Origin: Desulfovibrio sp. | Lineage (GTDB): Bacteria; Desulfobacterota; Desulfovibrionia; Desulfovibrionales; Desulfovibrionaceae | DNA: 64,000 nt | Assembly: GCA_030145055.1 (NCBI GenBank) | Contig: JAQYWK010000003.1 | Location: forward strand, 186,001-250,000 | Direction: 5' to 3' | Part shown: one piece after another, positions 2,640-40,257 of the stretch | Numbering within the stretch: the first letter of the stretch is position 1 | How the letters are laid out: every line of letters begins with the position of its first letter | The notes under the pieces: model-generated | What the model was told of the DNA's origin: nothing | Seen by the model: the letters and a program-made list of their open reading frames with translations, nothing else | Databases searched by the model: none | Translations under genes and position numbers: made by a program

Positions 2640-2645
2640 TGTTAT

Positions 2646-5573
2646 ATGACTGCAAAGATAAAAGTTAAGGAATTGGCCGCCGAACTAGGCGTCAATCCCA
2701 AAGATATTCTTCAAAAGTTGCGAGACTTAGGAGTACAGGCCAAAAGCACTGTAGCGGACATCGATGACGACTCAGCCAAGGCTGTTCGCAAAGAGCTCGC
2801 TGGAGCATCAGCCAAAGTAACTCAGAGGGAAGTTCAACCCGGAGTTATTGTACGTCGCCGTAAAGGTGGCCCAGCCAAAGCAAATTCTGAAACTCCAGAA
2901 GCTGAAAAGCCTAAGGATAAGGATTCTGATGCTACCACAGAGGTAGCTAAAGAAACTCCTGCAAAGAAGCCTGCTAAAAAAGCTGCTGATAAGAAAGTTA
3001 CTGATGGATCTAAAGCTGATGAAAAGGCTCCTGCTAAAAAGAAGAAGCCTAAAAAGAAGGCTCCTGCTAGAGCAGAAGTGCCTCTTGCAAAAGTTATCAA
3101 GCCAGAAGATCTTGAAGCGAAAAAACAAAAAGAAGCAACTCCGGCTGAGAAAGCGGAAACACCCCCATCTGCAGAACCAGCCAAAGAAAAGGCTCCTAAA
3201 AAAGAAGCTGCAAAGAAACCTGCTGCAGATAAAGGCAAGCCTTCTAAAGATACAGCTGACAAAAAAGAAGCTAAGCCTAAAGACGCTAAACCAAAAGACG
3301 GCGAGCCTAAAAAGAAAAAGCGCAAGAAGAAGAAAGAAATCGAGCCGCCTAAAGTTAAAGTTATTTCAAGGCCCGATCCAAATCTTCAGGCTGCACAGCG
3401 CGCAGCGGAAGGCCCTTCCGGTGGAAAAAGACCTTCTCCTGGCGCTAGACCTAGCGGTCCCGGTGGAAGACCTGGTGGTCCTGGCGGAAGACCTAGCGGT
3501 CCCGGTGGAAGACCTGGTGGTCCTGGCGGAAGACCTAGCGGTCCCGGCGGAAGACCTGGTGGTCCTGGTGGCCCTGGTGCAAGACCTGCTCCTGCAGGAA
3601 GACCAGTTCCCGGAGCTCCACAGCCTGGCGCAGATGATGGTCAGAGCAAGAAAAAGAAATTTAAGAAAGATAAGCGCGTCGTTGAGTTCGGTAAGGACCA
3701 TAAGAAGACCGGCCAAGATCGCGATATGGAAAGTAAGTTTCGCCGTAAGAAAAAGGGCAAGAAGGGTAAACGTCAGGAACAAGAGCCTGTCGTCCAGAAG
3801 CCGCTTAAGGCAGCTAAGCGTAAAGTTAAATTCAACGAAGCAATCAGATTGGCCGACATGGCTCATCAGATGGGACTTAAAGCGCAAGAGCTTATTAAAA
3901 CTCTCTTCGCTCTTGGAGTCATGGCTACAATCAACCAGTCACTTGACCTTGATACAGCCACCTTGCTTGCAGCTGAATTTGAATACGGAATTGAGAACGT
4001 ATCCTTCTCCGAAGAAGAATTGCTCGTTCCGGCCACAGAAAAAGATGACGAAAAGTCACTTATGCCTCGTCCTCCCATTGTTACTATCATGGGACATGTT
4101 GACCACGGTAAAACATCACTGCTTGACGCAATCCGTCACAGTACTGTTACCGATGGAGAAGCTGGCGGCATAACACAGCATATTGGTGCTTACCACGTAA
4201 CCACCGAACGAGGAGATATCGTATTCCTTGATACTCCGGGCCATGAAGCTTTCACCACTATGAGAGCACGTGGAGCGCAGGTTACTGATATCGTAATTCT
4301 AGTCGTCGCAGCTGACGACGGAGTTATGGATCAGACCCGTGAAGCAATAAGCCATTCTAAGGCTGCCGGAGTTCCCATTGTTGTTGCAGTCAACAAAATG
4401 GATAAAGAAGGCGCCAACCCAGAAAAAGTCCAGCGTGAACTTGCTGACTACGACCTCGTCCCCGAGGACTGGGGCGGAGATACAATGTTCGTTCCTGTAT
4501 CAGCTAAACAGCGTACAGGTCTCGATCATTTGCTAGAAATAGTTCAGCTTCAGGCTGAAGTCCTTGAGCTTAAAGCTAATCCCAACAAAGCCGCTCGCGG
4601 TAACGTCGTTGAAGCTAAGCTTGATAAGGGACGTGGTCCTCTAGCTACTATCTTGATTCAAGAAGGAACCATCAATCAGGGTGATCCTTTTGTTTGTGGT
4701 CTTTACCACGGACGAGTCAGAGCTATGTTTAATGACCGCGGTCAGAATATTAAGACAGCAGGTCCCGCCTTCCCAGTTGAAATTCAGGGATTTGACGGAA
4801 TACCGCTAGCAGGTGATGAATTCATCTGTGTGTCTGACGATAAGAATGCTCGTAAAATTGCTCAGGAACGTAAGCTGAAACATCGCGAACGTGAACTGGC
4901 AGGCAAGTCTAAAGTGACTCTCGAGTCATTCCTTGCTTCCAAACCTGATCAGGAAGTTCAGACTCTCAACGTTGTCCTTAAAGCCGACGTACAGGGTTCA
5001 CTTGAAGCAATTGCTGAAGCTCTCGCAAAACTTGCTACTGATGAAATTAAAGTTGAAGTCATTCACGGCGGCGCAGGTGCAATCACAGAATCAGACATTC
5101 TGCTCGCATCAGCAAGTCAGGCCATCATCATTGGATTTAACGTAAGACCTACAGTTAAAATCAAAGAAGTGGCTGAACGTGAACAGGTAGAAATTCGTTT
5201 CTACGACATCATCTACAAGCTCGTCAGCGAAATTAAAGATGCGATGGCTGGAATGCTCTCCCCTGATATTAAGGAAGTATATCTCGGTCAGGCAGAAGTT
5301 CAGCAGACCTTCTCCGTACCGAAAATCGGAACAGTTGCAGGTGTTAAGGTTGTAGACGGTAAGCTCACAAGGCATGCTAAAGTTAGACTGCTTCGTGAAG
5401 GAGTCGTAATCTACACAGGAACCTTAACCTCACTGAAACGCTTCAAAGATGACGCCAAAGAAGTTGCCAAAGGGTACGAATGTGGTGTTGGACTTGAAAG
5501 ATACAATGACATTAAAGAGGGCGACGCAATCGAAGCCTTCGAAGAAATCGAAGTCGCAAGAACTCTCGAATAG
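2646..5573 (+). CDS. infB: Translation initiation factor IF-2
   Basis: IF-2 is the GTPase that brings fMet-tRNA to the 30S subunit and promotes subunit joining. The 975-residue protein has an IF2_N module at 1-55. A long Lys/Ala/Pro-rich linker follows, with three [14 protein letters not shown] units at about 268-309. A second IF2_N module lies near 395-445, then the G domain: GHVDHGKT near 481, DTPGHE near 528, NKMD near 584. Domains II, III (C1) and IV (C2) complete it. The start follows AGGGGGT. It is longer than E. coli IF-2 (890) because of the linker. An internal start giving a shorter isoform is possible but I cannot place it. Confidence 0.97.
3447..3572 (+). repeat. 42-bp coding minisatellite in infB, three copies
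   Basis: Three consecutive in-frame 42-base units start at 3447, 3489 and 3531. Each encodes [14 protein letters not shown] and they differ by a few bases. They lie in the unstructured linker of IF-2, so gain or loss of a unit would be tolerated. This is a likely strain-variable site. Confidence 0.85.
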
Positions 5574-5580
5574 CAATTAT

Positions 5581-5607
5581 AAGGGGCGGCACATGTCGCC
5601 CCTTTTT
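5581..5607 (+). terminator. Intrinsic terminator between infB and DUF503
   Basis: AAGGGGCG (5581-5588) pairs perfectly with CGCCCCTT (5597-5604) and the stem is followed by six T. It sits 7 bases after the infB stop, inside what is otherwise a continuous operon, so it probably lowers rather than ends expression of the genes that follow. Confidence 0.85.
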
Positions 5608-5625
5608 TAAACTTTCAAGCACAAA

Positions 5626-5913
5626 ATGATAATCGGCGTACTTTCACTTGAATTCAGACTTCACGGTAATAATTCTCTTAAAGGCAAACGAAAAATCTCA
5701 CTTAGCCTGAAACAAAAATTGCGCAATAAATTTAACGTCTCCGTATCAGAAGTCGAAGCGCAAGACTCCCACGAAAGATTAGTTCTAGCTGTAGTGACAG
5801 TCGCGAACGAAACTAGTAAAGTAGATAGCAGATTATCAAAAGCCCTTGCAATGGTCGAAGCCATTTCTCCCGCAGAATTGATAAATTGTGAAACAGAAAT
5901 TTTTAGTTCCTGA
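5626..5913 (+). CDS. DUF503 (YlxP-like) family protein
   Basis: Conserved small protein of 95 residues, matching the DUF503/YlxP family in length and in the pattern IIGVLSLEFRLHGNNSLKGKR. The family is usually found between infB and rbfA, as here, and is presumed to serve ribosome assembly or translation, but no biochemical role is established that I can name. The ATG at 5626 has only a weak ribosome site. It lies between two terminator hairpins (5581-5607 and 5909-5941), which is unusual for an internal operon gene. Confidence 0.85.
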   Translation: MIIGVLSLEFRLHGNNSLKGKRKISLSLKQKLRNKFNVSVSEVEAQDSHERLVLAVVTVANETSKVDSRLSKALAMVEAISPAELINCETEIFSS

Positions 5914-5941
5914 TCGTTTCGGTCAGGATAATTTTTTTTTA
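5909..5941 (+). terminator. Intrinsic terminator between DUF503 and rbfA
   Basis: CCTGATC (5909-5915) pairs with GGTCAGG (5921-5927), followed by ATAA and a run of ten T. The 5' arm overlaps the DUF503 stop codon (5911-5913), so ribosomes finishing DUF503 would interfere with its folding. Coupling of termination to translation is an inference. Confidence 0.7.
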
Positions 5942-5954
5942 AAGGTACATAGAT

Positions 5955-6308
5955 ATGAAAACGTCCACATCACGCCGCTCCATCAAGATGGGTGACATGA
6001 TTATGCGAGAACTCGCTACAATGCTTATTGAAGATGTTGCTGATCCACGCCTCGAAATGGTTTCAATCAGCGGTGTTAGAATCAACAAAGATTTGAAATA
6101 CGCAGAAGTTCTTTTCACTCTTTCAGGTGATAAAGAAAAAATAGCCGCGGCTCAGCAAGCTTTACAGAAAGCAGCCGGCTACATGCGCAGCACTCTCAGT
6201 AAGCGCCTTAGAGTTAGACAGGTTCCGCTACTCACATTCATTCACGATAATTTTCTCGAGGAGATGGTCTATGGAAAATCCATTGAAAGAAATCTGCCAG
6301 ATTCTTAA
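5955..6308 (+). CDS. rbfA: Ribosome-binding factor A
   Basis: RbfA binds the 30S subunit during late 16S rRNA maturation. The 117-residue protein has the KH-like RbfA fold and signature: RRSIKMGDMIMRELATML at the N-terminus, DPRLEMVSISGVRINKDL in the middle and RVRQVPLLTFIHD near the C-terminus. The start follows AAAGG with good spacing. The 3' end overlaps the next gene (nrnA-like) by 38 bases, with the ribosome site of that gene inside rbfA, so the two are translationally coupled. Confidence 0.95.
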   Translation: MKTSTSRRSIKMGDMIMRELATMLIEDVADPRLEMVSISGVRINKDLKYAEVLFTLSGDKEKIAAAQQALQKAAGYMRSTLSKRLRVRQVPLLTFIHDNFLEEMVYGKSIERNLPDS

Positions 6309-7239
6309 GGGTGAAGACGATTTTCTCATCGCTTCTCATTATCACCCGGATGGTGATGCTCTTGGTTCCACAGCCGCCCTCGGATTTATCTTAAAAGCTC
6401 TCGGAAAACGCTTTCGTATTTACAATCAAAGCGGCGTTCCTGAGGCAATGAAGTGGTTTACCCTTCCTTCTACCATGCTTACCGAAGTCCCTAAAAAGTT
6501 CGACGGCTGGTACATTATTCTTGATTGTGGAGACGCAGCGCGCATGGGTGAAACTCTCATGAATGCTATGGACCCTGAAAAGTCCATCAATATTGATCAC
6601 CACATGGGTAACTCCGATTTCGCGACCATCAACTGGGTAGACACAAACCGCCCGGCTGTTGGTGAGATGATTACACTCATCGCACGCGAACTTAAAATTT
6701 CACTGTCAGGTCCAATCGGCGAAGCAATATACTTATCTATTGCAACCGATACTGGATTTTTCACTTACGGCAACACTAAGCCGGAAACCCTAGAAATTGT
6801 GGCTGATATTCTCAGACACGGTTTACAGCTTGACGAGTACGTTCCGAAAATTCGCAATCAATGGTCGATGAAACGTATTAAGCTCTGGACCATTGCTCTC
6901 GCTAAAATCGAGCTGTACCATGATGATCAGACAGCAATGATCTTTGTCACTCAAGAGATGCTCACCGAAACAGATACAGGTGGACCAGACTGCGAAGGAT
7001 TAGTAAATTTCATTAGAAGAATTCGTAATGTTCGTGTTGCGATTGTCGTTCGCGAAGATACTCAGCATAGATTTAAATTCAGCCTTCGTTCATCAGGGCC
7101 TGATAATGTGCAGGTTGTTGCCTCAACTTTCGGAGGTGGCGGCCACAGAAACGCCAGTGGCGGAATGATCGAGAATACTGCAGAGTATGTACGCAATAGG
7201 CTTACTGAAACTCTTTCTGAAAAGCTTTACAATATATAA
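6271..7239 (+). CDS. nrnA: DHH-family phosphoesterase, NrnA-like (oligoribonuclease / pAp phosphatase)
   Basis: DHH/DHHA1 phosphoesterase of 322 residues, the usual length for NrnA enzymes, which degrade nanoRNAs of 2-5 nucleotides and dephosphorylate pAp. Visible motifs are SHYHPDGDALGS (about 20-31), LDCGDAARMG, the DHH box IDHHMGN near 109-115 and the GGGGHRNASGG loop of DHHA1 near 288-298. The ATG at 6271 follows GAGGAG inside rbfA. The position between rbfA and truB is standard. A cyclic-di-AMP phosphodiesterase role cannot be excluded from sequence, but the GdpP-type membrane and PAS parts are absent. Confidence 0.9.
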   Translation: MENPLKEICQILKGEDDFLIASHYHPDGDALGSTAALGFILKALGKRFRIYNQSGVPEAMKWFTLPSTMLTEVPKKFDGWYIILDCGDAARMGETLMNAMDPEKSINIDHHMGNSDFATINWVDTNRPAVGEMITLIARELKISLSGPIGEAIYLSIATDTGFFTYGNTKPETLEIVADILRHGLQLDEYVPKIRNQWSMKRIKLWTIALAKIELYHDDQTAMIFVTQEMLTETDTGGPDCEGLVNFIRRIRNVRVAIVVREDTQHRFKFSLRSSGPDNVQVVASTFGGGGHRNASGGMIENTAEYVRNRLTETLSEKLYNI

Positions 7240-7250
7240 AGGAACATCCT

Positions 7251-8189
7251 GTGGGAAGAAAACCTCGCGTAAGCCCTTTTCAAAAACATGGCGTGCTTGT
7301 TCTAAATAAGCCAACCGGACCAACTTCTGCTGATTGCCTTAACACGATTAAACGTGAATTAAAGCAATCCAAGATTGGACATGCCGGAACATTAGACCCT
7401 CTCGCCGAAGGTGTTTTGCTTGTAATGCTCGGCCAAGCAACCAAACTTGGACCATATTTAATGGGACAAGATAAAATTTACTCTGGAAGTCTAATAATCG
7501 GAAGAACTACCGACACTTACGACATTCAGGGAGAAGAAACTTCGTCCAGTGATGTTTCAAGCATTACAGAAAAAATGGTCGAAAAAGAAATTTTAGCATG
7601 GAATGACTTGACTAGTCAGCAGGTTCCTGCATATTCGGCTGCTAAGCACAAGGGTAAACCACTCTATGAGCTTGCTCGAAATGGCGATGAAATTCCTGTT
7701 AAAATTAAAAGCATTAAAATTTTTGATGGTAAACCGCTAGAAGTGAGTCTGCCAATGGCCCGTTTTCGAGTAGGGTGCTCTGCCGGCACCTACATTCGCT
7801 CCCTCGTCCACAGCTTGGGGATACGGCTCGAATGCGGCGCAGTAATGGAATCACTTAAGCGTGAAGAAAGCCGACCGTTCACGTTGGCTGAAGCACATGA
7901 TTTAGATGAGGTTCTTAACGATCCTGACGGTTTTGAGAGTCGTATTATTCCGATTGCGGATGCACTTCCTCATTGGCCCAAATTCACTGTGGGTGAAAAA
8001 ATGGCCGCCGATATCAAGAACGGAACAAGAATCCCAGTCGAAAATGTGCCTGGTGCAGCTGGATCATTAGTAATTGAAGGTGATAGAGCTATGTTTCTTG
8101 ATCCCGAGGGCATTCCGCTTTCATTAGCGGAGGCCAAATACGTTGATAACAACTTGCACTGGACTGTTCTTCGCGGCTTGTGGGGTTGA
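7251..8189 (+). CDS. truB: tRNA pseudouridine-55 synthase
   Basis: TruB converts U55 in the T-loop of tRNAs to pseudouridine. The 312-residue protein has the catalytic motif GHAGTLDPLAEG, with the nucleophilic Asp near residue 49, then KIYSGSLIIGRTTDTYD and the GTYIRSLVHSLG motif. A C-terminal PUA-like part closes the protein. The GTG start at 7251 follows AAAGGAACATCCT and lies 11 bases after the previous stop, so it belongs to the same transcript. Confidence 0.95.
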   Translation: MGRKPRVSPFQKHGVLVLNKPTGPTSADCLNTIKRELKQSKIGHAGTLDPLAEGVLLVMLGQATKLGPYLMGQDKIYSGSLIIGRTTDTYDIQGEETSSSDVSSITEKMVEKEILAWNDLTSQQVPAYSAAKHKGKPLYELARNGDEIPVKIKSIKIFDGKPLEVSLPMARFRVGCSAGTYIRSLVHSLGIRLECGAVMESLKREESRPFTLAEAHDLDEVLNDPDGFESRIIPIADALPHWPKFTVGEKMAADIKNGTRIPVENVPGAAGSLVIEGDRAMFLDPEGIPLSLAEAKYVDNNLHWTVLRGLWG

Positions 8190-8259
8190 TTCCCTGTGGG
8201 ATTTAGACTTCTAGCACAAACAAACATTCGTGTTACAGAACGCGAAGGAGGGTACCGCT

Positions 8260-8529
8260 GTGGTAATGACCGCTGAAGATAAGGCAAAAGTAATTGAGGA
8301 ATACCAGTTAACACCAGGAGACACAGGTTCTCCAGAAGTACAGGTTGCACTCCTGACAGCTAGAATTTTGTATCTTACAGGCCACTTTAAAGATCACAAA
8401 AAAGATTTTCACTCACGTACTGGACTCCTGAAAATGGTTGGACAGCGCAGAAACATCTTGAAATACCTGAAGTCTAAAGACGTTCAGCGTTACCGTGATC
8501 TTATCGCAAGACTTGGTCTTCGCAAATAA
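8260..8529 (+). CDS. rpsO: 30S ribosomal protein S15
   Basis: S15 binds 16S rRNA early in assembly of the small subunit platform. The GTG at 8260 gives 89 residues, equal to the E. coli protein, and lies 7 bases after GAAGGAGGG; ATG at 8266 is the alternative. Conserved stretches are [32 protein letters not shown] and the GLRK end. It is the last gene before a strong terminator. In enterics S15 represses its own mRNA through leader structure. The 70 bases upstream contain only a small TCCC/GGGA hairpin here. Confidence 0.96.
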
Positions 8530-8539
8530 GCAGTTGTTT

Positions 8540-8571
8540 AAGGGGAGGAGCGATCCTCCCCTTTCTTTTTT
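8540..8571 (+). terminator. Strong terminator after rpsO
   Basis: AAGGGGAGGA (8540-8549) pairs perfectly with TCCTCCCCTT (8554-8563) around a GCGA tetraloop, followed by a T-rich tract. It ends the rimP-to-rpsO transcript. Confidence 0.93.
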
Positions 8572-8878
8572 ATACGCTCTAAAATTATATTTCCTTAATT
8601 CCATACATATTATAATGTTTGAATCATACGAAATTAATTTACAAGGCAAATCAGGCAAACACACTTTTAGTTTTTTTTAAGCCCGCAGAAACTCTGTTAA
8701 AGGCGCTTAATAGATACTAAAATATTAACGGTTTCTGGCATCCCCTTATGGATTTTTAGTTGGCTAAGGAAAGGGTTCAGATTCATCTGAAATCTTCCCT
8801 GAGCCGGCTAGAAAATTCGGGCTGTTTCTGATTCCGTTTTTCCAAATTTATTTACAACCAAACTCATGAGGAGTTTAA
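8572..8878 (+). promoter_or_regulatory. pnp promoter region and structured leader
   Basis: No gene is visible here. From 8762 to 8805 a nested hairpin can be drawn: GGCT/AGCC outside, GGAA/TTCC in the middle, and a perfect 7-bp stem TTCAGAT/ATCTGAA at the tip with a 2-base gap. Polynucleotide phosphorylase mRNAs in enterics carry a leader hairpin cut by RNase III for autoregulation. A similar role is likely by analogy but not shown. A TATAAT at 8611-8616 lacks a good -35 box. The pnp ribosome site (GAGGAG) is at 8867-8872. Confidence 0.5.
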
Positions 8879-11083
8879 ATGTTAGTACCTTTTGAAAAAA
8901 CCTCAGTAATGGGCCAAGTAGGCGCATTAGACATCAAGATCGAAACAGGCCGTATGGCGAACCAGACCAACGGTACTGTTCTTATTCAGTCCGGTGGAAC
9001 AGTTGTTCTTGTCACTGCTGTAAGCATGACAACCAGCGAGCCTAGAGACTTTTTCCCTCTTACTTGTAACTATCAAGAAAGAACTTACGCAGCAGGCCGT
9101 ATTCCCGGTGGTTACTTCCGCCGCGAAGTAGGTCGTCCTTCTGACCGTGAAACTCTTGTTTCCCGTCTTATGGATCGCCCTATCCGCCCAATGTTCCCTA
9201 AATCTTTCACCGACGAAGTACAGGTTATCGCAACCGTCCTTTCCGCTGATAAAGATACCAACCCTGATGTCCTGGCTATGACCGGAGCTTCCGCGGCACT
9301 ACATCTCTCCGACATGCCTTTCAACGGCCCAATCGCCGCTGCAAGAATCGGAATGGTAAATAACGAATTCGTTCTCTACCCTACATATAAAGGTATCACT
9401 GACGGCAGCGATCTTAACCTCGTATTTGCAGCAACTCGCGACGCTGTAATCATGGTTGAAGGTAGCGCGCAGTTCCTTTCTGAAAACACAATCGCTGAAG
9501 CGCTTGAATGGGGACATGAGCAGCTTGCTCCAATGTTCGACCTTCAGGACGCTCTCAGAGAAAAAGTCGGTAGACCAAAAAGAGTAATTGCTGATGTTGT
9601 AAAGGACGAAGAAGTTATCACTCTCGTTACTGACAACTTTGCTGCTGACCTTGATGCGGCTTTGACAATTCCAGAAAAAATGACTCGTAGAGCTGCAAAA
9701 TCTGAAGTTAAAAAGAGCGCAGTTGCATTCATCACCGAGAAATTCCCTGAAGAGCCAAAAAGAGCTAAAGCTGTAAGCGAAGCTATGGGCGCACTAGAGA
9801 AGAAAATCGTACGTGGACGCATCGTTGAGAAAGGTATTCGCATTGATGGTCGTGATTTGACCACAGTTCGTGACCTAGCCATGGAAGTCGGCACATTGCC
9901 AATGACACATGGTTCCGGCTTGTTCCGCAGAGGTGAAACTTCAGCTCTAGCAATTTGTACTCTCGGTAGCTCTCGCGACGAACAGAGATTTGAAACTTTG
10001 ATCGGTGACGATACTAAACGTTTCATGCTCCATTACAACTTCCCTCCATATTGTGTTGGTGAAGCTAGATTCCTTCGTGCTCCATCACGCCGCGAAATCG
10101 GACATGGTATGCTTGCTGAGCGCGCACTGACTCCAGTTCTTCCTTCAGCAGAAGATTTCCCGTTCACCATCCGTGTAGTTTCCGAAATCATGGATTCTAA
10201 CGGTTCATCTTCAATGGCTTCTGTTTGTGGTACTACTATGGCTCTTATGGACGCTGGTGTGCCAATCACAGCTCCTGTTGCTGGTATCGCAATGGGACTT
10301 TGTCAGGAAGGCGACGAATTCTACGTATTGACTGACATCCTCGGCGACGAAGATGCACTCGGCGATATGGACTTCAAGGTTGCTGGTAGTGAAGAAGGTA
10401 TCACAGCAATTCAGATGGATATCAAAATCAGCGGAATCCCTGCTGAAGTTCTTCGCAAAGCACTCGCACAGGCGAAAGAAGCTAGAATGCTTATCCTGAA
10501 TGACATGAAAGAAATCATTGCTGAGCCAAGAAAACAGCTTTCTGTTAATGCTCCTCAGATGCAGGTTGTTAACATCAACCCTGAGAAGATCAGAGACCTG
10601 ATTGGACCTGGCGGTAAAAATATTAAAGCGATCACTGCTGAAACTTCTGCGGACATCGACATCGAAGATTCCGGTAAAGTTTCCATTTTCGCTCCTACAC
10701 TCGAGTCTCTTACTAAGACTGTACAGATGGTTGAATACTACGACCAAACGGCAGAACTCGGTAAGAACTACGTAGGAACAGTTAAAAAGATCCTCGAAAT
10801 TGGTGCAATCGTTGAGATTCTACCTGGCCTCGAAGGACTTCTACACGTTTCCCAGATTGACGTTGAGCGCATTGAAAACGTAACAGACGTTATTCAGCTC
10901 GGTCAGGAAGTAACTGTTAAGGTTGTTGAAGTTCAGCCTAACGGACGCATCAGACTTTCCCGTAAAGCATGGCTCATGGAACAGGCTGGACAGGAAGTTG
11001 ACCTCGACAGATTCAAAATGCCTAGCGGCGGACGCCCTCCAAGAGGCGGACCTCGTGACGGTGGTCGCGGCGGACGCAGATAA
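8879..11083 (+). CDS. pnp: Polynucleotide phosphorylase
   Basis: PNPase is the phosphorolytic 3'-to-5' exoribonuclease of RNA turnover, a trimer often associated with RNase E. The 734 residues hold two RNase PH domains joined by an alpha-helical linker (GRDLTTVRDLAMEVG opens the second). A KH domain (LIGPGGKNIKAI, about 573-584) and an S1 domain (GTVKKILEIGAIVEILPGLEG) follow. The protein ends in an Arg/Gly-rich tail after residue 715, a likely RNA contact. It lies next to rpsO, as in many bacteria, but is separated by a terminator and has its own leader. Confidence 0.97.
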   Translation: MLVPFEKTSVMGQVGALDIKIETGRMANQTNGTVLIQSGGTVVLVTAVSMTTSEPRDFFPLTCNYQERTYAAGRIPGGYFRREVGRPSDRETLVSRLMDRPIRPMFPKSFTDEVQVIATVLSADKDTNPDVLAMTGASAALHLSDMPFNGPIAAARIGMVNNEFVLYPTYKGITDGSDLNLVFAATRDAVIMVEGSAQFLSENTIAEALEWGHEQLAPMFDLQDALREKVGRPKRVIADVVKDEEVITLVTDNFAADLDAALTIPEKMTRRAAKSEVKKSAVAFITEKFPEEPKRAKAVSEAMGALEKKIVRGRIVEKGIRIDGRDLTTVRDLAMEVGTLPMTHGSGLFRRGETSALAICTLGSSRDEQRFETLIGDDTKRFMLHYNFPPYCVGEARFLRAPSRREIGHGMLAERALTPVLPSAEDFPFTIRVVSEIMDSNGSSSMASVCGTTMALMDAGVPITAPVAGIAMGLCQEGDEFYVLTDILGDEDALGDMDFKVAGSEEGITAIQMDIKISGIPAEVLRKALAQAKEARMLILNDMKEIIAEPRKQLSVNAPQMQVVNINPEKIRDLIGPGGKNIKAITAETSADIDIEDSGKVSIFAPTLESLTKTVQMVEYYDQTAELGKNYVGTVKKILEIGAIVEILPGLEGLLHVSQIDVERIENVTDVIQLGQEVTVKVVEVQPNGRIRLSRKAWLMEQAGQEVDLDRFKMPSGGRPPRGGPRDGGRGGRR

Positions 11084-11106
11084 GCTTAATTACTTATAGA
11101 TAATTT

Positions 11107-11146
11107 AAAAGGCTCTGAAACTAAAAAGGTTTCAGAGCCTTTTTTT
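11107..11146 (+). terminator. Terminator after pnp
   Basis: A 15-bp perfect stem (11107-11121 with 11129-11143) around a 7-base A-rich loop, core GGCTCTGAAAC, ends in a T run. Confidence 0.93.
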
Positions 11147-11175
11147 AGCCAAAAAGTATTGGGAGTCTTGAACCT

Positions 11176-11346
11176 TTAATTATCCTTAACTTCCTGCTTA
11201 CCTTCCTCATATCCCTGCTTGAAGTCATCTGGAGCCTGTTTCACTGTTTCGGTCGCCTTGCCGGTTTCTTTGCCCATCCATGAGCACGCAGGGATCACAG
11301 AAAACATAAACATTGCCAGCATAATCATACAAATTGTTTTTTTCAT
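11176..11346 (-). CDS. Small lipoprotein, 56 residues
   Basis: On the minus strand a strong ribosome site (AAAGGAGCG) precedes an ATG at 11346 and a 56-residue frame ends at 11176. The product starts MKKTICMIMLAMFMF, a typical lysine-led hydrophobic signal peptide. An IPAC lipobox follows, with the acylated Cys at residue 21. The mature part is 36 residues, charged (KETGKATETVKQAPDDFKQG) and probably helical. It should be exported and lipid-anchored. No family is recognised; it resembles short entericidin-like or Lpp-like lipoproteins only in layout. It is easily missed because of its size. Confidence 0.72.
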   Translation of the reverse strand: MKKTICMIMLAMFMFSVIPACSWMGKETGKATETVKQAPDDFKQGYEEGKQEVKDN

Positions 11347-11612
11347 GAATCGCTCCTTTAATTATTCAATTTAAAACAAAGCTATCTAATTTAAATATTG
11401 ATTCATAATTACATAAAACTATATTTTCATGAAATATTATTTTCAACAATATCCAGTTGAACAGTCCTTCAAAATTTTGATCAAAAGGCTCTCCCATGAC
11501 AGCTATAATACACTAGAATCCTTAATTGAACTACCATTGACAACTCTTACTTAACGCTGTTAGCGATGATTAAGAAAATTATAAATCAACCTAAGCTTGC
11601 CTGAGAGTTCAA
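11347..11612. other. AT-rich intergenic region
   Basis: Divergent spacer between the small lipoprotein gene and the hydrolase gene. It must hold both promoters, but no clear -35/-10 pair stands out and I see no further gene. Confidence 0.35.
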
Positions 11613-12542
11613 TTGCAAAATATAATTCCGCAATCCTTGAGTAATAGTAAACCATCACGCAATTTACAAATAATCTTGATATTATTTTTAACCATCTTCC
11701 TGCTTCATGGAAGTTCAGAACAAACTGAAGCTTCCGATAATCTTCCGAAAACGACAACTTCAAAAGATGGTTCAATAATTTCTTATGAGACATACGGAGA
11801 AGGCGATCAAACGCTAATTTTTGTGCATGGCTGGTGCTGTGACAGCAGATACTGGCGAGAGCAGATTTCTTTTTTTTCAAAGAAATATAAGATGGTGCTT
11901 GTTGACTTAGCAGGACACGGACACTCATCTTCAGAGCGTAAAAATTACACAATGAAATCATTCGGGGAAGATATTAAGGCTGTAATAGACGCCACAAATA
12001 GCGATAAAGTCATCCTTATAGGGCATTCAATGGGGGGGCCAGTAATAGCAGAGACAGCGCGATTAGTTCCAGATAAAATCATTGCTTTAGTTGGGATTGA
12101 TACCCTTGAAAACATTGAATATCCAATGACCGACAAAATTAAAGGCCAAATACTTGGCCCCCTTGAAAAGAACTTTCGTAATGGCTGCAGCAATATAGTG
12201 AATGGAATGTTTTCAAATTCAACAGACCAGTCAATTCGTAACTGGGTAGTTTCTGATATGTCAGCGGCGCCACATGCTGTAGCACTGAGTGCCAATAATG
12301 CATACTTTGATCAGTATATAACTGGAGAATCTGCAAAGATTTTTGAAGAAATTAAACTACCCATATATTGTGTAAATGGCGAAATATGGCCAATCAACTA
12401 CGAAGCAAATCGCAGGCATATGCAATCATTTGACGCAACAGTATTGAAAGGAGCTGGGCACTTCCTGATGTTAGCTAGGCCCAATGATTTTAATGAAGCT
12501 CTAGATAAGACCATCATTAAAATATTGAAAAAACATAAATAA
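11613..12542 (+). CDS. Alpha/beta hydrolase with N-terminal export or anchor segment
   Basis: A 309-residue protein. Residues 17-38 (LQIILILFLTIFLLHGSSEQ) form a hydrophobic signal peptide or membrane anchor, so the enzyme probably works in the periplasm or on the membrane. The hydrolase fold follows: the oxyanion motif FVHGW near 69-73, DLAGHGHS, the nucleophile elbow IGHSMGG (Ser near 139) and the C-terminal GAGHF with the catalytic His. The substrate is unknown. The start is a TTG at 11613 with a weak ribosome site and could be wrong by some codons. It is AT-rich relative to its neighbours and flanked by long spacers, so it stands alone. Confidence 0.8.
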   Translation: MQNIIPQSLSNSKPSRNLQIILILFLTIFLLHGSSEQTEASDNLPKTTTSKDGSIISYETYGEGDQTLIFVHGWCCDSRYWREQISFFSKKYKMVLVDLAGHGHSSSERKNYTMKSFGEDIKAVIDATNSDKVILIGHSMGGPVIAETARLVPDKIIALVGIDTLENIEYPMTDKIKGQILGPLEKNFRNGCSNIVNGMFSNSTDQSIRNWVVSDMSAAPHAVALSANNAYFDQYITGESAKIFEEIKLPIYCVNGEIWPINYEANRRHMQSFDATVLKGAGHFLMLARPNDFNEALDKTIIKILKKHK

Positions 12543-33368: not shown

Positions 33369-33770
33369 ATGAGAGCGCTAATCGCCGAGGATGAATTTGT
33401 CGGCAGAAAACTTATTTCGACGTTTCTTTCACCGCTTTTTGAGATTGATATTACAGTAAATGGAAAAGAAGCTTTAGAAGCATTTAAGATAGCTTTCAAA
33501 GAAGGAAAGCCTTATAAACTGATTTTTATGGACATCATGATGCCTGAAATGGACGGCCTTACTGCCCTTGATGCAATCCGAAAGTTTGAAACAGAGAATA
33601 AAGTTCTAAGCAAAGATACAGTTAAGGTGTTCATGACGACTGCAATAGATGACCCTAAAACGGTAATTCGCTCGTTCCATGATCTTGAAGCTTCAGCGTT
33701 TCTAGTAAAGCCTCTGTTAAAAGAAAAACTTTACGAAGAATTAGAAAAAATAGGCCTCCTAAATAAGTAA
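33369..33770 (+). CDS. CheY-like response regulator (single receiver domain)
   Basis: A 133-residue stand-alone receiver. The acidic pair is in LIAEDEFVG and the phosphoacceptor Asp in FMDIMMPEMDG. The Thr switch (VFMTTA) and the Lys in AFLVKP are also present. There is no output domain, so it acts by protein contact, as CheY does. The ATG at 33369 sits five bases after GGAGG; upstream in-frame ATGs at 33327 and 33357 lack a site. It is the first gene of a three-gene signalling operon with a separate Hpt protein and a CheA-like kinase. Confidence 0.92.
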   Translation: MRALIAEDEFVGRKLISTFLSPLFEIDITVNGKEALEAFKIAFKEGKPYKLIFMDIMMPEMDGLTALDAIRKFETENKVLSKDTVKVFMTTAIDDPKTVIRSFHDLEASAFLVKPLLKEKLYEELEKIGLLNK

Positions 33771-33793
33771 TATCGGGTTTCACGGAGCTACAG

Positions 33794-34543
33794 ATGAGCG
33801 ATGACGATTCATTAGTTGAAGAATTCTTTTCAGAAGTTAATGATAAATATTACCCTCAAGTCCTTGAGGGGATTGACCTTCTCGACGAAGAACAAATAGA
33901 AGAAGGTATTGAGATTCTCTCGCGCCCGTTGCACACAATTAAAGGTGTAACAGGTTTTATGACAGGCTTTGAGCCTGCGTCTGGCTTTACTCACAAAGTT
34001 GAAAGCTTTCTGAAAAAAATGGAATCGGGCGAGGTCGGAAGAAAACTTCCGCAAATAGCATTAGCCATTGAATCTGTTAACTCAATATTTATCCTCATTG
34101 AACAACTGCGAAATACTGGAACTTATGACCAAGAATTTACATCATCCATCGAAAGTAGACTTTTAGAAGAAGGTAAAGCTGTTGCAGGACCTGTCGACAG
34201 CGGACTGAACCCTATAGAAATTGAGTCGATAGACGGTACTGAAATTATAAGCCTTGCAGTCAACAGACTTTACCTTGCCAGCCAGCGCAATCCCGTCAAA
34301 GAAGTATTGCAGGGAATTGAAACCGGCAGCCGAGTTCTTTTTGACTTCAGCAACACTCTCTCCGTAGGTTCATCTCTTTTTGAAGTTATTGCCTCATTTT
34401 CCCAAGACCTTGAAATTGGAATCGTTGGCATGAACAGTTTATGCTCAGCCAATTTTCACACTTGGGGATTTTCGAGACACCTCACAGAGTATGACAATAA
34501 AGAATCTTTCATTTCGAACAATCTTTCTGGAGCAAATGTATAA
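33794..34543 (+). CDS. Stand-alone Hpt protein with a C-terminal STAS-like domain
   Basis: A 249-residue protein. The N-terminal 1-115 is an Hpt/CheA-P1 domain with the phosphoacceptor site RPLHTIKGVTGFM (His47). It ends in helices that close the four-helix bundle (HKVESFLKKMESGEV). Residues about 150-245 (GSRVLFDFSNTLSVGSS then LEIGIVGMNSL) have an alternating pattern like STAS domains; this second assignment is weaker. The stop TAATG overlaps the kinase start by one base, so the two proteins are made in step. It probably provides in trans the histidine the kinase lacks. Confidence 0.83.
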   Translation: MSDDDSLVEEFFSEVNDKYYPQVLEGIDLLDEEQIEEGIEILSRPLHTIKGVTGFMTGFEPASGFTHKVESFLKKMESGEVGRKLPQIALAIESVNSIFILIEQLRNTGTYDQEFTSSIESRLLEEGKAVAGPVDSGLNPIEIESIDGTEIISLAVNRLYLASQRNPVKEVLQGIETGSRVLFDFSNTLSVGSSLFEVIASFSQDLEIGIVGMNSLCSANFHTWGFSRHLTEYDNKESFISNNLSGANV

Positions 34544-36273
34544 TGAAAGACAGTATAGCAAGCTGTATTGAAGATATACAAGAGACTATTATCAATCTGG
34601 AACAAGGCTCCGGAGATATTAACAATATCATGCAAACCCTTGGTCTTGCGAATGTAAAAATACCATCTGCGCAGGTTATAGCTTTGCTCGACATGTTGGC
34701 AGACGGCATAACCCCCGTGACGTCGGACTTAGTAACAACTCTACTTGAAATCACCGAAGCTCAGAAAAAATTATTTTTCTGCATTGCAGGACTTTTGGAT
34801 AAAGGAGCCGCGCCTGTTGACTGCAAAACCAAGGAAATTGTAGCCGAACCAGTTCTAAAAGTAGATCTCGCTCAGACTGAAGCCGCAGATCTTGACGCAT
34901 TTGAACAACTCATGGCTAAAGAATCCGGGGAAATAGCGGACGAAACTCTAACCGATGAGAATCAGCCGCAAGAAGAAATAAAAACCGAAGAGCCTCAGGT
35001 TTCAGTTGCAGCTTCGCAGATCAAATCAGAAGAGAAAACTGAAAAAGTAGCACAGTCAAAATCTAAGAAAAAAGACAAATCACAAGCAATATCTTCAATC
35101 CGCGTTTCAACGCAGCAGCTTGATTCTATCATCGAGCTTGTCGGTAAACTGATGGTTACACATGCTGTGATAGCACAGACCGGAACCGACAATATGGCTA
35201 AAATTTCCGTAAGCCTCGGCGAGCTTGATAAAGTAATCCGAAGCCTGCAATCTGAAGTGGATGAAATAAGACTTGTTCCTTTAAAACAGATCTTTATGCC
35301 CATGCACAGACTCGTTAAGAGCACATCCCAAAAACTAGGCAAAAGAATTAAGTTTAATGTCACAGGCGAAGAACTGGCTCTTGATAAAACAATTGTCGAA
35401 TGTCTTAACGAACCCCTCGTCCACCTGCTCAGAAATGCACTTGACCATGGGATTGAGTCTACCGAAGACCGCCAAATGTGCGGAAAGGATGAATCAGGAA
35501 CTGTCAGCCTTTGCGCAAGCAGAAAAGGCGAATTCGCCTACATCGAAATAATTGATGACGGTAAAGGACTTGATTCAGAAGTTTTACTTTCAAAGGCTCT
35601 TGAACGTGGACTCGCCGACCCGGAAAAGCAATATACCGAAGAAGAAATTTTCGAGTTTATCCTCCAATCAGGATTCTCAACAGCTGATGCAGTGACCGAC
35701 ATATCAGGCCGCGGAGTAGGGATGGATGCGGTTGTAAGCTCTATTCAGAACACTCTTGATGGTAAAGTTTCTATTAAAAGTAAACTGGGTAAAGGATCAA
35801 CTTTCACCATTGCCATTCCTCTAAGCCGATCTGTTAATGAAGGTATTGTTGACGCGCTGATTACCTCTGTAAACTCCGAAATCTTTATTTTCCCAAGTCG
35901 CGAAGTTCTCGAAGTATACGAACCGAACCTGAAAGAATTTGCCCTTCTGCCAGACGGACGCGAAACTGTTTCTGTTAGGGGCAAGATTCACCCGCTAATA
36001 CGGATGCATACTGTCTTTGATTATCCTCAACCACCCGAAGGGCAGCTTTCAAAAGTAATCCTAGTGAAACTTGGAAAAAACAGCGCGGCAATACTTGTAG
36101 ACGATGTTTTGCGCCAGCAAAAAGCTGTTGTTACCGGGTTCACTTTGCCTGTAAACACCATCTACAAACTCCCCATACTCGGCTTCGGAATGATGGGAGA
36201 AAATGACGCATTGGTTGTAGACACTGAGACATTAATCAATACTCAGTTGGGACTAAGCGAGGCTGGAGTATAA
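34543..36273 (+). CDS. CheA-like histidine kinase with a degenerate P1 domain
   Basis: A 576-residue CheA-type kinase. Residues 1-95 resemble a P1 four-helix bundle, but the usual HTLKG phosphoacceptor site is replaced by IMQTLGLANV near 29-38, so the His is lost. A charged linker follows (105-180), then P3 dimerisation (SSIRVSTQQLDSIIELVGKL). The P4 ATPase has HLLRNALDHGIES (N box), DDGKGLD (G1), GRGVGMDAV (G2) and GKGSTFTI. The CheW-like P5 ends the protein. No P2 is evident. No receptor, CheR, CheB or CheW gene is adjacent, so it looks like an alternative-function system rather than classic chemotaxis. Confidence 0.9.
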   Translation: MKDSIASCIEDIQETIINLEQGSGDINNIMQTLGLANVKIPSAQVIALLDMLADGITPVTSDLVTTLLEITEAQKKLFFCIAGLLDKGAAPVDCKTKEIVAEPVLKVDLAQTEAADLDAFEQLMAKESGEIADETLTDENQPQEEIKTEEPQVSVAASQIKSEEKTEKVAQSKSKKKDKSQAISSIRVSTQQLDSIIELVGKLMVTHAVIAQTGTDNMAKISVSLGELDKVIRSLQSEVDEIRLVPLKQIFMPMHRLVKSTSQKLGKRIKFNVTGEELALDKTIVECLNEPLVHLLRNALDHGIESTEDRQMCGKDESGTVSLCASRKGEFAYIEIIDDGKGLDSEVLLSKALERGLADPEKQYTEEEIFEFILQSGFSTADAVTDISGRGVGMDAVVSSIQNTLDGKVSIKSKLGKGSTFTIAIPLSRSVNEGIVDALITSVNSEIFIFPSREVLEVYEPNLKEFALLPDGRETVSVRGKIHPLIRMHTVFDYPQPPEGQLSKVILVKLGKNSAAILVDDVLRQQKAVVTGFTLPVNTIYKLPILGFGMMGENDALVVDTETLINTQLGLSEAGV

Positions 36274-36417: not shown

Positions 36418-37209
36418 ATGAAAAAAGGCATTCTTCTCGCAGCTCATGGTTCGAAAAATCGGGCCGCCAACTCTTCTCTCAGCAACATACTTAAGCTAAC
36501 AAAAGCTGAATACCCGGATATCCCCATAAAAAGTGCGTTCACATCCTACCATGTGCGCCAAATAATGAAAAAAAAAGGACAACCACTTCCCTCGGTTGAA
36601 GAAGTCCTAACGTCTATGCATGAAGACGGAATTACCCATGTAGTGATTCAATCACTTCATGTTATTCCGGGTATTGAATTTCATCACATCACTAGAATAC
36701 TTAATAAAATTGAAAAAGGTGAGATTAACTTTGAGAAGGCAATCTTCGGACAACCTCTTCTTAGTGATGAGCAAGCGGTTGATGAAGTTTCTGACATCAT
36801 TTTATCCCTTTTGCCGGAACGTGACCCCCAAAATGACGCTTTAATATTGGTAGCCCATGGCTCTCGTCATTCAGGAAATATTTTTTACCATAAATTTAAA
36901 TTAGCACTTGAAGAAAAAGATAAAAATGCATTTTTAGGAGCTGTAAGTTCTCCCACTGACATCTATGAAATAAGTGATAAAATTGAAAAATCAGGTATAA
37001 AAAGAGCATTTCTCATCCCACTTCTTTTCGGAGCAGGCAACCACGTCCAAATGGACATGGCTGGGGATCACGATGAATCATGGAAGAATATAGTTTCTGC
37101 AAAAGGAGTTGAACCAATTCCAATTGTTCGCGGAATTGGTGAATTTGATATTTTTGCCAAACGCTGGATGGACAACCTGCGTAATGCTATCAAAGAATTG
37201 GACAAATAA
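36418..37209 (+). CDS. cbiK: Sirohydrochlorin cobaltochelatase
   Basis: CbiK inserts Co2+ into sirohydrochlorin for anaerobic cobalamin synthesis (class II chelatase); iron insertion for siroheme is also possible in this family. The 263-residue protein shows the metal-binding His sites in LLAAHGSKN, IQSLHVIPGIEFHH and LILVAHGSRH, and GAGNHVQMDMAGDH near the C-terminus. The ATG at 36418 follows AGGGAT. No signal peptide precedes it, so it is the cytoplasmic rather than the periplasmic type known from Desulfovibrio. A corrinoid-activator-like gene lies 114 bases downstream. Confidence 0.92.
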   Translation: MKKGILLAAHGSKNRAANSSLSNILKLTKAEYPDIPIKSAFTSYHVRQIMKKKGQPLPSVEEVLTSMHEDGITHVVIQSLHVIPGIEFHHITRILNKIEKGEINFEKAIFGQPLLSDEQAVDEVSDIILSLLPERDPQNDALILVAHGSRHSGNIFYHKFKLALEEKDKNAFLGAVSSPTDIYEISDKIEKSGIKRAFLIPLLFGAGNHVQMDMAGDHDESWKNIVSAKGVEPIPIVRGIGEFDIFAKRWMDNLRNAIKELDK

Positions 37210-37322: not shown

Positions 37323-38879
37323 ATGAAAAATAATCTGACCGTGAATGTTCATGACGGAACAGTCCTTGAACTGACACCATCAACTGAGCTTAACCTTGCT
37401 CAACTTCTATTTCTGAATGGAGCTTTTAACGGAGTCCCTCTCTGTTCGGGCATGGGCCGTTGCGCCTTGTGTAAAGTCAGATTCGATTCTGACGCACCAA
37501 CTCCCCTGAAAGAAGAATTAAAGAAATTCAGTTCAGACGAAATAGAATCCGGCTACCGCTTATCATGTTTGCACAAAGCTAACGCAGGAACCGTTTACCT
37601 CCCGCAGCCAGAGCGCGTTGTCCCAAAAATTTCTGGTAAATTCGCAAGCGGCATACCGGATAATCTTTCACTCGCAGTAGATCTCGGGACCACGGGCATG
37701 CACTGGGCGTTTACATTAAACGGCGAAATAGTAACCTCTGGCCAAGAACTAAACCCGCAAATCGGCCTCGGCAGCGAAGTTATGTCCCGCCTTGCTTTCG
37801 CGCAAAATCCTGAACATTGCAAAATTTTATCGGACCTTGTCACAAGCAGACTTGCCGAGATTATTGAGCAGACCGCGCCCGCAAAAGACATGGTCATCAC
37901 GGGCAATCCCTCAATGATCTCAATTCTTGCCGAGGACAACGTCGAAGGACTAAGCCGTGCGCCATATTCACTTCCAAGTCCGGGCGATGAGATTCTATCA
38001 CTTAATCACAATCTTCCAAAAGCTTATGTACCTGCCCATCTAGCCCCTTTTGTCGGAGCAGACATAACAGCAGGCATTGTTTCCCTTAATTTTTCAGACG
38101 CAGTCCCTGAGCCGCCATATCTTTTTGCGGATCTAGGAACTAACGGCGAATTTGTCCTCTGCCTTTCACCAGATGAATACATTGTGTCATCTGTTCCCAT
38201 GGGCCCAGCGCTCGAAGGCGTAGGACTATCCAATGGCAGAACAGCTGGACCGGGTGCTATTTCATCTTTCACCCTCACCCCGACCGGACTTTCTCCATCA
38301 TTAATAAGCGAACCGGACAGCCGAACCACTCCGGGTATTACAGGAACAGGATATCTCTCACTCTGTTCTATTTTACTAAAATCAGGAGTACTCACCCGCG
38401 AAGGACAATTCTCAAATGGAAACACCCCTTTTGCGGCGCGACTAGCCCAAAAAATAACAGAACTACACGGCTCTCCGGCCCTTAATCTTGGCTTAAATTC
38501 GGAGCTTTTACTCCCTGCTTCTGATATAGAAGAAATATTAAAAGTCAAAGCCGCTTTCAATTTAGCCACGACGGCCCTGCTAGATCAGGCCGATATGCGC
38601 CCTTCTTCGCTGAATTCCTTAATTCTAGGCGGAGCAATGGGACAGCATGTAAATATTAATGATCTTGTAACTACTGGTTTTATTCCTGCTGAAACAGGTC
38701 CTATAACCCGCGCCGCAGGCAACACCTCCCTAGCAGGAGCTGTAATTCTCACAAATAATAAAAATGCTCGAGATTTCGCGTCAAATCTACCTTCCCTAAC
38801 TACCGTATTGGAGTTAGCTGGAGAGCAGGATTTTGGACAAAAATACCTCGAAAGGATGATATTTCAATATGTCTATTAG
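37323..38879 (+). CDS. RACo-like ferredoxin/ASKHA ATPase (corrinoid protein reductive activator family)
   Basis: A 518-residue protein. Residues 1-95 form a 2Fe-2S ferredoxin domain with Cys41, Cys47, Cys50 and Cys82 (CSGMGRCALC, then RLSCLH). A linker leads to an ASKHA ATPase domain with VDLGTTGMHWAF, FVGADITAGI, FADLGTNGEFVL and LGGAMGQHVN. This is the layout of RACo/RamA-type activators that use ATP to reduce inactive Co(II) corrinoid proteins to Co(I). The adjacent cbiK fits a corrinoid theme. Its target methyltransferase is not in the window. The last 11 bases overlap the next gene. Confidence 0.88.
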   Translation: MKNNLTVNVHDGTVLELTPSTELNLAQLLFLNGAFNGVPLCSGMGRCALCKVRFDSDAPTPLKEELKKFSSDEIESGYRLSCLHKANAGTVYLPQPERVVPKISGKFASGIPDNLSLAVDLGTTGMHWAFTLNGEIVTSGQELNPQIGLGSEVMSRLAFAQNPEHCKILSDLVTSRLAEIIEQTAPAKDMVITGNPSMISILAEDNVEGLSRAPYSLPSPGDEILSLNHNLPKAYVPAHLAPFVGADITAGIVSLNFSDAVPEPPYLFADLGTNGEFVLCLSPDEYIVSSVPMGPALEGVGLSNGRTAGPGAISSFTLTPTGLSPSLISEPDSRTTPGITGTGYLSLCSILLKSGVLTREGQFSNGNTPFAARLAQKITELHGSPALNLGLNSELLLPASDIEEILKVKAAFNLATTALLDQADMRPSSLNSLILGGAMGQHVNINDLVTTGFIPAETGPITRAAGNTSLAGAVILTNNKNARDFASNLPSLTTVLELAGEQDFGQKYLERMIFQYVY

Positions 38880-40257
38880 AGTCACATCACTTTTCCCATT
38901 ACCACAAGAAAAAGTCACCAACACGCTAGAATACTATGAAAAGATATTGGATCAAGCTGCGCCTCTACGTGCAAGACACAGAGAGGAAGTCCACTACGCT
39001 ATCCGCGATTTATCAAAAATGCTAACAGGTGACCGCGCAAGTTTACCCAAAGATTATATGGGTGATCCACGCACATTTAATGCCTACTTACGCTTTTTCC
39101 TACCTTGGAATTTATACAGACTTACCCGCCTTTTTCAGGGCATGGATTTCGATCTGCCCAACGACGGCGTCATCATTGACCTCGGAGCAGGACCACTAAC
39201 TGTCGCGCAGGCTCTTTGGATTGCAAAACCTAATCTTCGTGAAAAACGGTTGACCTTCATCAACGTTGACCGTTCACCGAAGCCAATGCGCGAAGGTCAA
39301 AAACTATTTGAAGCTCTTGCGCCCAAAAGCCCTTGGAAAATGGTTAACGTCAAAGGCGGCCCATCATCCAAGGTTCGCGAAAAAGCGAACCTGCTAATCA
39401 CCGCAAACATGGTGAACGAAGCTTCATCCGGAATGCGCACGCCCCTTCCACTATGGGCAAATAAATTCTCTCAGCAGATAAGCAGAATGCTCGCACCTAA
39501 AGGGAAAATACTCATCATTGAACCAGGCATCCGCCGTTCGGGCCGCGTTCTTTCCCTTTTGCGTAATGAATTTATCGAGAAAGGACTTTCAATTCTAGCT
39601 CCATGTCCACATCACGAAGAATGTCCTATGAGCGGCGAACAAGGGAAGTCATGGTGTCATTTTAACTTTGACTCGACCCATGCTCCAGAGTGGCTACAAA
39701 AGCTCGCTAAGAAATGTCGCATGGAAAAAGATAATGTCAGCATGAGTTTCCTATACGTAGGACAGGCAGATGCCCCTACTCCAGTGCCAGAAGAAAACAG
39801 TATGCTCATACGAACTGTTTCTGAATCATTTAGAATTGACGATGGCGGATTTGGGCAATACGGATGTGCCGCAGAAGGTTTAATTCTTCTTCTAGCCAAA
39901 GGCGAAGCAAGATCCATTTTCCCTGGTGGGCTCGTAGGAATTCCAACACCAGAAAAACTGGAAGAAGATCTAAAATCAGGCGCGAAGATTGTTGAGCTGC
40001 CGACTCGCGCAATTCATAAAGGTGCGAATGCAAAGCCTTCTGACCCGAAATCTGATCACAAGTCAAAATCTGATCGAGACTCAAAACCAGTTGAACGCTC
40101 TGGTTCAAGGCCTGATTCAAGAAAAAGTCATTCTCCAAAGGACGCATCAGATTCTTGGACGAATTCAAAAAAAAGTAATTCTCCAAAAGATACATCTGAT
40201 TCTTGGACGAGTTCAAAAAAAGAGTCCTACAAAAAGAATAAACCTCCCCGCAAATAA
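38869..40257 (+). CDS. Rsm22/METTL17-like ribosomal small-subunit family protein
   Basis: A 462-residue protein of the Rsm22 family (PF09243), a methyltransferase-like fold linked to small-subunit assembly in mitochondria. Visible parts are an N-terminal helical region, VIIDLGAGPLTVAQAL at 101-116, LITANMVNEA, ILIIEPGIRRSGR, and a conserved Cys motif around 244-263 (CPHHEECPM, then WCHF). In METTL17 the equivalent Cys residues hold an iron-sulfur cluster. The last 75 residues are a Lys/Ser-rich tail with two 16-residue repeats. It overlaps the activator gene before it and is 20 bases from lipB. Confidence 0.85.
   Translation: MSIRVTSLFPLPQEKVTNTLEYYEKILDQAAPLRARHREEVHYAIRDLSKMLTGDRASLPKDYMGDPRTFNAYLRFFLPWNLYRLTRLFQGMDFDLPNDGVIIDLGAGPLTVAQALWIAKPNLREKRLTFINVDRSPKPMREGQKLFEALAPKSPWKMVNVKGGPSSKVREKANLLITANMVNEASSGMRTPLPLWANKFSQQISRMLAPKGKILIIEPGIRRSGRVLSLLRNEFIEKGLSILAPCPHHEECPMSGEQGKSWCHFNFDSTHAPEWLQKLAKKCRMEKDNVSMSFLYVGQADAPTPVPEENSMLIRTVSESFRIDDGGFGQYGCAAEGLILLLAKGEARSIFPGGLVGIPTPEKLEEDLKSGAKIVELPTRAIHKGANAKPSDPKSDHKSKSDRDSKPVERSGSRPDSRKSHSPKDASDSWTNSKKSNSPKDTSDSWTSSKKESYKKNKPPRK
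40123..40218 (+). repeat. 48-bp coding tandem repeat, two copies
   Basis: Units 40123-40170 and 40171-40218 each encode 16 residues (KSHSPKDASDSWTNSK and KSNSPKDTSDSWTSSK) in the basic tail of the Rsm22-like protein. A partial similar stretch precedes them. Copy number could vary between strains. Confidence 0.8.

Follow-up and report, generated by a model that had tools for sequence, protein, structure and literature searches.

A likely split CheA phosphorelay with a separate Hpt-STAS phosphocarrier in Desulfovibrio

Three head-to-tail genes on the plus strand (positions 33369-36273) of the 64,000-nucleotide stretch of Desulfovibrio sp. DNA analyzed here, which we refer to as the window, code for a lone receiver, a protein in which Hpt and STAS domains are combined, and a kinase resembling CheA. 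Together they very likely form a split CheA phosphorelay, in which the kinase would donate a phosphoryl group in trans to the Hpt-STAS protein, at His47, and this protein would in turn pass it to Asp55 of the receiver. This reading builds on the domain make-up of the three proteins, the loss of the phosphoacceptor from the kinase, the invariant His and Asp residues and the order of the genes across relatives, all of them read from the sequences; the direction of phosphotransfer, the partner of the STAS domain, and the input and output of the system are what we infer from them. According to the proposed mechanism, the kinase dimerizes via its P3 domain and binds ATP in its P4 domain; as its own P1 domain no longer contains the histidine helix, it would act in trans on the Hpt-STAS protein and phosphorylate His47 there. 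The phosphoryl group would then move from the Hpt domain to the receiver encoded just upstream, where Asp55 would accept it, and the vestigial P1 domain may have stayed in the kinase for structural or docking purposes. Through its STAS domain, the phosphocarrier would gain a second contact, most likely to an RsbW-like kinase of the anti-sigma type or to a different partner-switching protein, and through this contact the relay could be gated by, or report to, a serine switch. The Hpt-STAS/split-kinase family offers some 80 conserved examples of such a system, its kinase half is testable without a P1 domain of its own, and its phosphocarrier may form a bridge between two kinds of bacterial switch.

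The receiver is a single-domain protein of 133 amino acids (33369..33770; Pfam Response_reg, E 8.2e-16); its start was set at a conserved ATG at position 33369, while the mechanically derived open reading frame begins at position 33327. It is followed by the gene for the Hpt-STAS protein (249 amino acids; 33794..34543) and by that for the kinase (576 amino acids; 34543..36273), and the latter two genes overlap by a single base (TAATG), just as the first-pass annotation of this DNA had stated. The same annotation regarded the gene set as complete enough for a His-Asp relay, and receiver, Hpt and kinase are indeed all present. It also noted that neither a receptor nor a separate CheW protein is encoded here, which holds for the entire window: no CheW or MCP match was found in it besides the kinase's own P5 domain, and the locus hence lacks the CheW and MCP genes that lie beside cheA in a classic chemotaxis operon. 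The entry point for input that the annotation proposed, P5 or the STAS-like part, is a conjecture.

A search with the Hpt protein against 288 genomes of the family yielded matches in 198 of them (E <= 0.001), most of which were short and of the P1 type. Strong matches, chosen by eye, were found at 81 places in addition to the window; the weakest has an E value of 1.4e-30, if one disregards the second piece of a broken gene in genome G224. Eighty of the 81 places were retrieved with their flanks; the remaining one (L212, from genome G169) is identical to locus L034. In all 80 retrieved loci, a match to the kinase is found downstream of the Hpt-STAS gene on the same strand, with the kinase loci of L093 and L098 being frameshifted and that of L099 being truncated at a contig end. 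A receiver gene precedes the Hpt-STAS gene in 78 of the 80 loci and is absent from L092 and L143. The receiver/Hpt-STAS/kinase arrangement is stable across related genomes, and the possibility that the split is an artefact of sequencing or annotation was ruled out by its presence in all 80 retrieved loci. A profile of the Hpt-STAS protein matched 83 of 348 genomes of the class (E <= 1e-12); 82 of these belong to the family of the window's organism and one (G311) to another family of the same order. When the same profile was applied to a sample of 395 genomes from the phylum, 23 matched, three of them over the full length (G156, G160, G311); the other 20 matches are weak and partial (E 6e-13 to 1e-10), reside in reading frames of 629-1382 amino acids, and presumably represent the P1 domains of ordinary CheA proteins.

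The N-terminal part of the Hpt-STAS protein (residues 1-128; 33794..34177) is a CheA-P1-type Hpt domain consisting of five helices. An AlphaFold2 model of the whole protein, built from 11 sequences (mean pLDDT 84.0, pTM 0.53), shows a five-helix bundle that is followed by an alpha/beta domain. In comparisons with VIA-align, the CheA P1 structure 1i5n_B ranks first for residues 2-131 (Z 16.6, rmsd 2.0, 125 aligned residues); designed and repeat helical bundles also reach scores of 12 to 15.5, and the fold alone is therefore not decisive for the identity of this domain as a CheA P1. The domain is also matched by a profile of the CheA P1 domains from the same genome (E 3e-14), and Pfam Hpt recognizes 11 out of 11 aligned members of the Hpt-STAS family (best E value 7.4e-7), the window's protein on its own staying below the Pfam cut-off (18.1 versus 24.6 bits). 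The segment H47-T-I-K-G is invariant in the window and the retrieved loci (81/81 rows), and the codon for His47 is found at positions 33932-33934. As in other split CheA systems, a P1 domain with an HxxKG motif (here HTIKG) and the CheA P1 fold thus resides on a separate protein. The presumed acceptor of the next step, Asp55 of the receiver (codon 33531-33533), is equally invariant: D8, D55 and K114 are each present in 79 of 79 rows of an alignment of the window with the retrieved loci.

The kinase possesses P3, P4 and P5 domains, but no P1 domain that could be phosphorylated. Pfam identifies an H-kinase_dim domain (P3; residues 184-239, 35092..35259), an HATPase_c domain (P4; residues 290-428, 35410..35826) and a CheW domain (P5; residues 439-566, 35857..36240; E 4.2e-13), and gives no Hpt match in the kinase at E <= 1. 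Alignment of the P3-P5 part with solved CheA begins at residue 165, and the motifs of the ATP-binding domain are intact, with N298, D338, G340, G342 and the segment GRGVGMD (389-395) each being present in 80 of 80 rows. By contrast, the kinase of the window has no histidine before residue H207. A scan of the N-terminal bundle, combined with inspection of the rows, ruled out a retained phosphoacceptor of its own: an HxxKG motif is absent from all 79 rows (of 81) in which the bundle is visible, and the alignment of all 81 rows has no invariant histidine column in this region. The only matches to the pattern H..[KR][GA] before P3, found in L119 and L136, are both HAEKA sequences in the linker just ahead of P3. 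Together with the invariant His47 of the neighboring protein, these data bear out the first-pass annotation in its central claim, that of an Hpt in trans and a kinase devoid of its own phosphoacceptor.

One might envision autophosphorylation of the kinase at a different site in its bundle, for example a histidine at alignment position 37, with the Hpt-STAS protein being an accessory relay step. A histidine is indeed found at position 37 in 48 of 81 rows, more often than at any other position of the bundle, and at position 74 in 25 of 81 rows. Yet 19 of the 81 rows, that of the window included, are without any histidine in the aligned bundle (18 if L093 with its broken start is excluded), and position 37 lies past the deletion discussed below instead of opposite the P1 histidine. 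Set against the histidine-free N-terminus of the window's own kinase, we consider this explanation extremely unlikely, and regard phosphorylation of His47 in trans as the preferred reading.

What, then, is the N-terminal region of the kinase (residues 1-92; 34543..34818)? A profile of it matches, over residues 5-72, a profile of eight CheA-type P1 domains from the same genome (HHalign, E 1.9e-4); these eight were hand-picked from the 22 Hpt domains of the genome, and the match is seen only against them, as neither the profile of all 22 Hpt domains (E 0.31) nor the sibling Hpt domain (E 0.23) gave a match. When the profile was anchored to the columns of the window's protein, a score of 29.2 (E 9.6e-5) was obtained. 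The reversed profile scored 15.1, and the highest scores among 200 column shuffles and 200 block shuffles were 18.6 and 21.1, respectively, so that none of the 400 shuffles reached 29.2. The profile alignments open a gap of 10 residues, or of 13 when anchored, in the kinase, and the histidine of the P1 domains falls inside this gap. The first-pass annotation described the sequence IMQTLGLANV as standing where HTLKG should be found; the motif histidine is missing, as it said, but it is a deletion of 10 or 13 residues and no substitution that accounts for its absence. In line with this, the second helix comprises only seven residues (26-32) in the AlphaFold model of the kinase, compared with 21 (35-55) in the Hpt-STAS model. 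For kinase residues 1-91, the model is of low confidence (pLDDT 63.3, pTM 0.36), and its comparison with 38 chains gave a best Z score of 4.2, with no P1 domain among the rows listed. From the profile alignments, the most plausible reading of the kinase's N-terminal domain is a vestigial P1 domain from which the histidine helix has been lost. Several P1 repeats occur in further CheA-type proteins encoded by this genome, and the two of L020 and L022 (frames of 1111 and 995 amino acids) seem to be without the HxxKG histidine.

The genome of the window's organism has 31 MCP matches and 17 matches to the CheW domain, and it encodes three more CheA-type kinases (H-kinase_dim proteins); this inventory leaves room for cross-phosphorylation. 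It would also be compatible with an alternative in which another CheA phosphorylates the Hpt-STAS protein, and the kinase encoded next to it serves as a scaffold or a phosphatase. Against such a role stands the fact that this kinase keeps all of its catalytic motifs and that its gene and the Hpt-STAS gene are adjacent in 80 of 80 loci; we therefore deem it very unlikely, and continue to view the local kinase as the probable phosphoryl donor for His47.

The C-terminal part of the Hpt-STAS protein is a STAS domain (residues 139-245; 34208..34528), as had been anticipated when it was called STAS-like. In the structural model, the alpha/beta domain (residues 135-245) matches SpoIIAA (1tid_D; VIA-align, Z 14.5, rmsd 2.3, 109 aligned residues), and Foldseek agrees with the assignment as STAS (best match 4hyl_A, E 3.4e-5). 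A profile of 14 STAS regions from the same genome matches this half of the protein with an E value of 5.6e-10, and Pfam STAS matches eight out of 11 aligned members (best 3e-4), the window's own protein not being among the matches shown. No CheW match was found in the C-terminal half, and the P1-bearing protein hence does not carry a P5 domain of its own. STAS-type domains are usually at home in serine-based switches. In the RsbW/SpoIIAB-SpoIIAA systems, a partner switch is operated through phosphorylation of a serine of the STAS protein. The profile alignment places Ser193 of the Hpt-STAS protein (codon 34370-34372) at the position of the SpoIIAA phospho-serine, in the column that we take to be the phosphorylated one. 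As in antagonists of the SpoIIAA/RsbV type, this position is occupied by serine in 75 and by threonine in three of 80 rows; the residue preceding it is mostly glycine (67/80 rows).

The two most divergent members of the family, G311 (L211) and G004 (L143), whose kinases likewise have no HxxKG motif in their bundles, differ from the window's group in their gene neighborhood. In both, an RsbW-like ATPase fused to a STAS-like half is encoded directly upstream of the Hpt-STAS gene (HATPase_c_2, E 1.1e-13 and 1.8e-12, respectively). In G311, the RsbW-STAS gene is immediately preceded by one for a SpoIIE-type phosphatase; in G004, a SpoIIE-type phosphatase fused to a receiver is encoded just downstream on the other strand. 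Moreover, the Hpt-STAS protein of G311 has a STAS half that resembles the RsbW-STAS protein of G004 (E 1.7e-8). This gene context suggests a link between the CheA relay and serine partner switching, and it points to a partner-switching role for the STAS domain that was not part of the first-pass annotation. The RsbW-STAS gene is rare, being found in three of 348 class genomes and in two of 395 phylum genomes, one of the latter (G362) with a partial match. Searches of the class and phylum genomes detected it in none of the close relatives of the window's organism, and in this group neither a gene for an RsbW-like kinase nor one for a sigma factor adjoins the Hpt-STAS gene; RsbW-like and SpoIIE-type proteins are encoded in the window's genome at unlinked positions. 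Genome G315 (L240; 7492-10129, minus strand), one of the three in the class with this gene, has kept genes for an HD-GYP protein, a SpoIIE-type phosphatase and RsbW-STAS, and both the Hpt-STAS protein and the split kinase are absent from the 15 kb of sequence examined, from which it follows that RsbW-STAS and the Hpt-STAS set are not obligate partners.

With these findings in mind, the STAS domain could also have no partner-switching role at all, and instead bind a ligand or hold the Hpt domain at the kinase or receiver in the manner of a substitute P2 domain. The close relatives without an RsbW-STAS gene, and the Gly that replaces the canonical Asp before the serine in most of them, speak for this possibility, whereas the hydroxyl residue that 78 of 80 rows have at position 193 and the RsbW-like kinase encoded next to Hpt-STAS in the two divergent relatives, with its similar STAS half, speak against it; in our view, the absence of such a role is about as likely as not, and a partner-switching function in the system at hand is itself rather doubtful. 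A more far-reaching scheme, in which the Hpt-STAS protein is phosphorylated at two sites, by the split CheA on His47 and by an RsbW-like kinase on Ser193, with each modification gating the other pathway, is put forward here as a rather doubtful conjecture. Under it, the full module (RsbW-STAS, SpoIIE-type phosphatase, Hpt-STAS and kinase) would survive in the divergent relatives, and the window's group would have been cut down to the relay, with the partner encoded at an unlinked site.

To the first-pass annotation the arrangement looked distinct from classic chemotaxis; a distinction in kind is not borne out in this form, as split CheA proteins with the P1 domain on another protein have been published (PMC3591291, PMC2829493, PMC7656254). 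The separation of P1 from CheA is already a published principle; it is the fusion of Hpt with STAS, the relic P1 domain and the gene context that differ here. According to the published accounts, CheA4 of Rhodobacter sphaeroides consists of P3, P4 and P5 without a P1 domain and phosphorylates the P1 domain of another protein, which then serves a single receiver (PMC3591291, PMC2829493, PMC3964821); transfer from P4 to P1 in trans has been proven for this route from CheA4 to CheA3 and then to CheY6 (PMC3591291). As described there, CheA3 possesses a P5 domain and a long phosphatase linker, whereas the carrier studied here is an Hpt-STAS protein without P5; CheA4 is entirely devoid of P1, whereas our kinase keeps a relic of it, and the CheA3 and CheA4 genes are part of an operon with those for CheB, CheR, CheW and a receptor, unlike the locus reported here. 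In Synechocystis, a CheA homologue is likewise reported to be split into an Hpt protein, Hik36 (PilL-N), and a kinase protein, Hik43 (PilL-C), with Rre6 interacting with both; their genes are far apart, they control pili and aggregation, and a STAS domain is not mentioned in that account (PMC7656254). Split CheA proteins are said to be rare (11 of 481 in a survey cited by PMC3591291), and proteins resembling CheA4 to occur in few species (PMC2829493); split kinases have been modelled as a route to ultrasensitive or bistable responses, with one well-studied natural example (PMC3591291). The main text of the paper on D. vulgaris CheA3 contains neither 'Hpt' nor 'STAS' (PMC3944678), and a description of an Hpt-STAS protein was not found among the papers examined from the literature searched.

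On the side of the serine switches, the system shares with RsbW/SpoIIAB-SpoIIAA (structures 1tid and 1h4x) the STAS fold and the serine at the phosphorylated position, as well as, beside the divergent relatives, the genes for an RsbW-like kinase and a SpoIIE-type phosphatase. It departs from it in that the STAS domain is fused to a histidine phosphocarrier.

Several further observations concern the surroundings of the locus and its relatives. In the window, a gene for a CbiK-type chelatase (36418-37209) lies 3' of the kinase gene on the same strand, and a CbiK-like chelatase occupies the corresponding place, also on the same strand, in 70 of 80 loci; the L034 copy begins one base past the stop of the kinase. 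A SpoU-type methyltransferase was found by BLAST near the locus in 73 of 80 cases, and a FecCD-like ABC permease is encoded downstream in 47 of 80, with the family names of neighbors outside the window having been assigned partly by eye. Further along the window (38869-40257), an Rsm22-like methyltransferase with a long, partly repetitive C-terminal tail rich in Ser, Lys and Asp is encoded. In genome G224 (L144, at about 4998-5700), the Hpt-STAS gene is frameshifted after about 80 residues, and the receiver and kinase genes are open. Finally, a chemosensory cluster of another family in genome G362 (L242, minus strand, about 683-11903) presents another case in which CheA and partner-switching genes are associated; it comprises MotAB-like proteins, two STAS proteins, CheY, a CheA with an intact P1 domain, a P1-CheW protein, CheD, a REC-SpoIIE protein and a REC-RsbW-like protein, names that were mostly given by eye.
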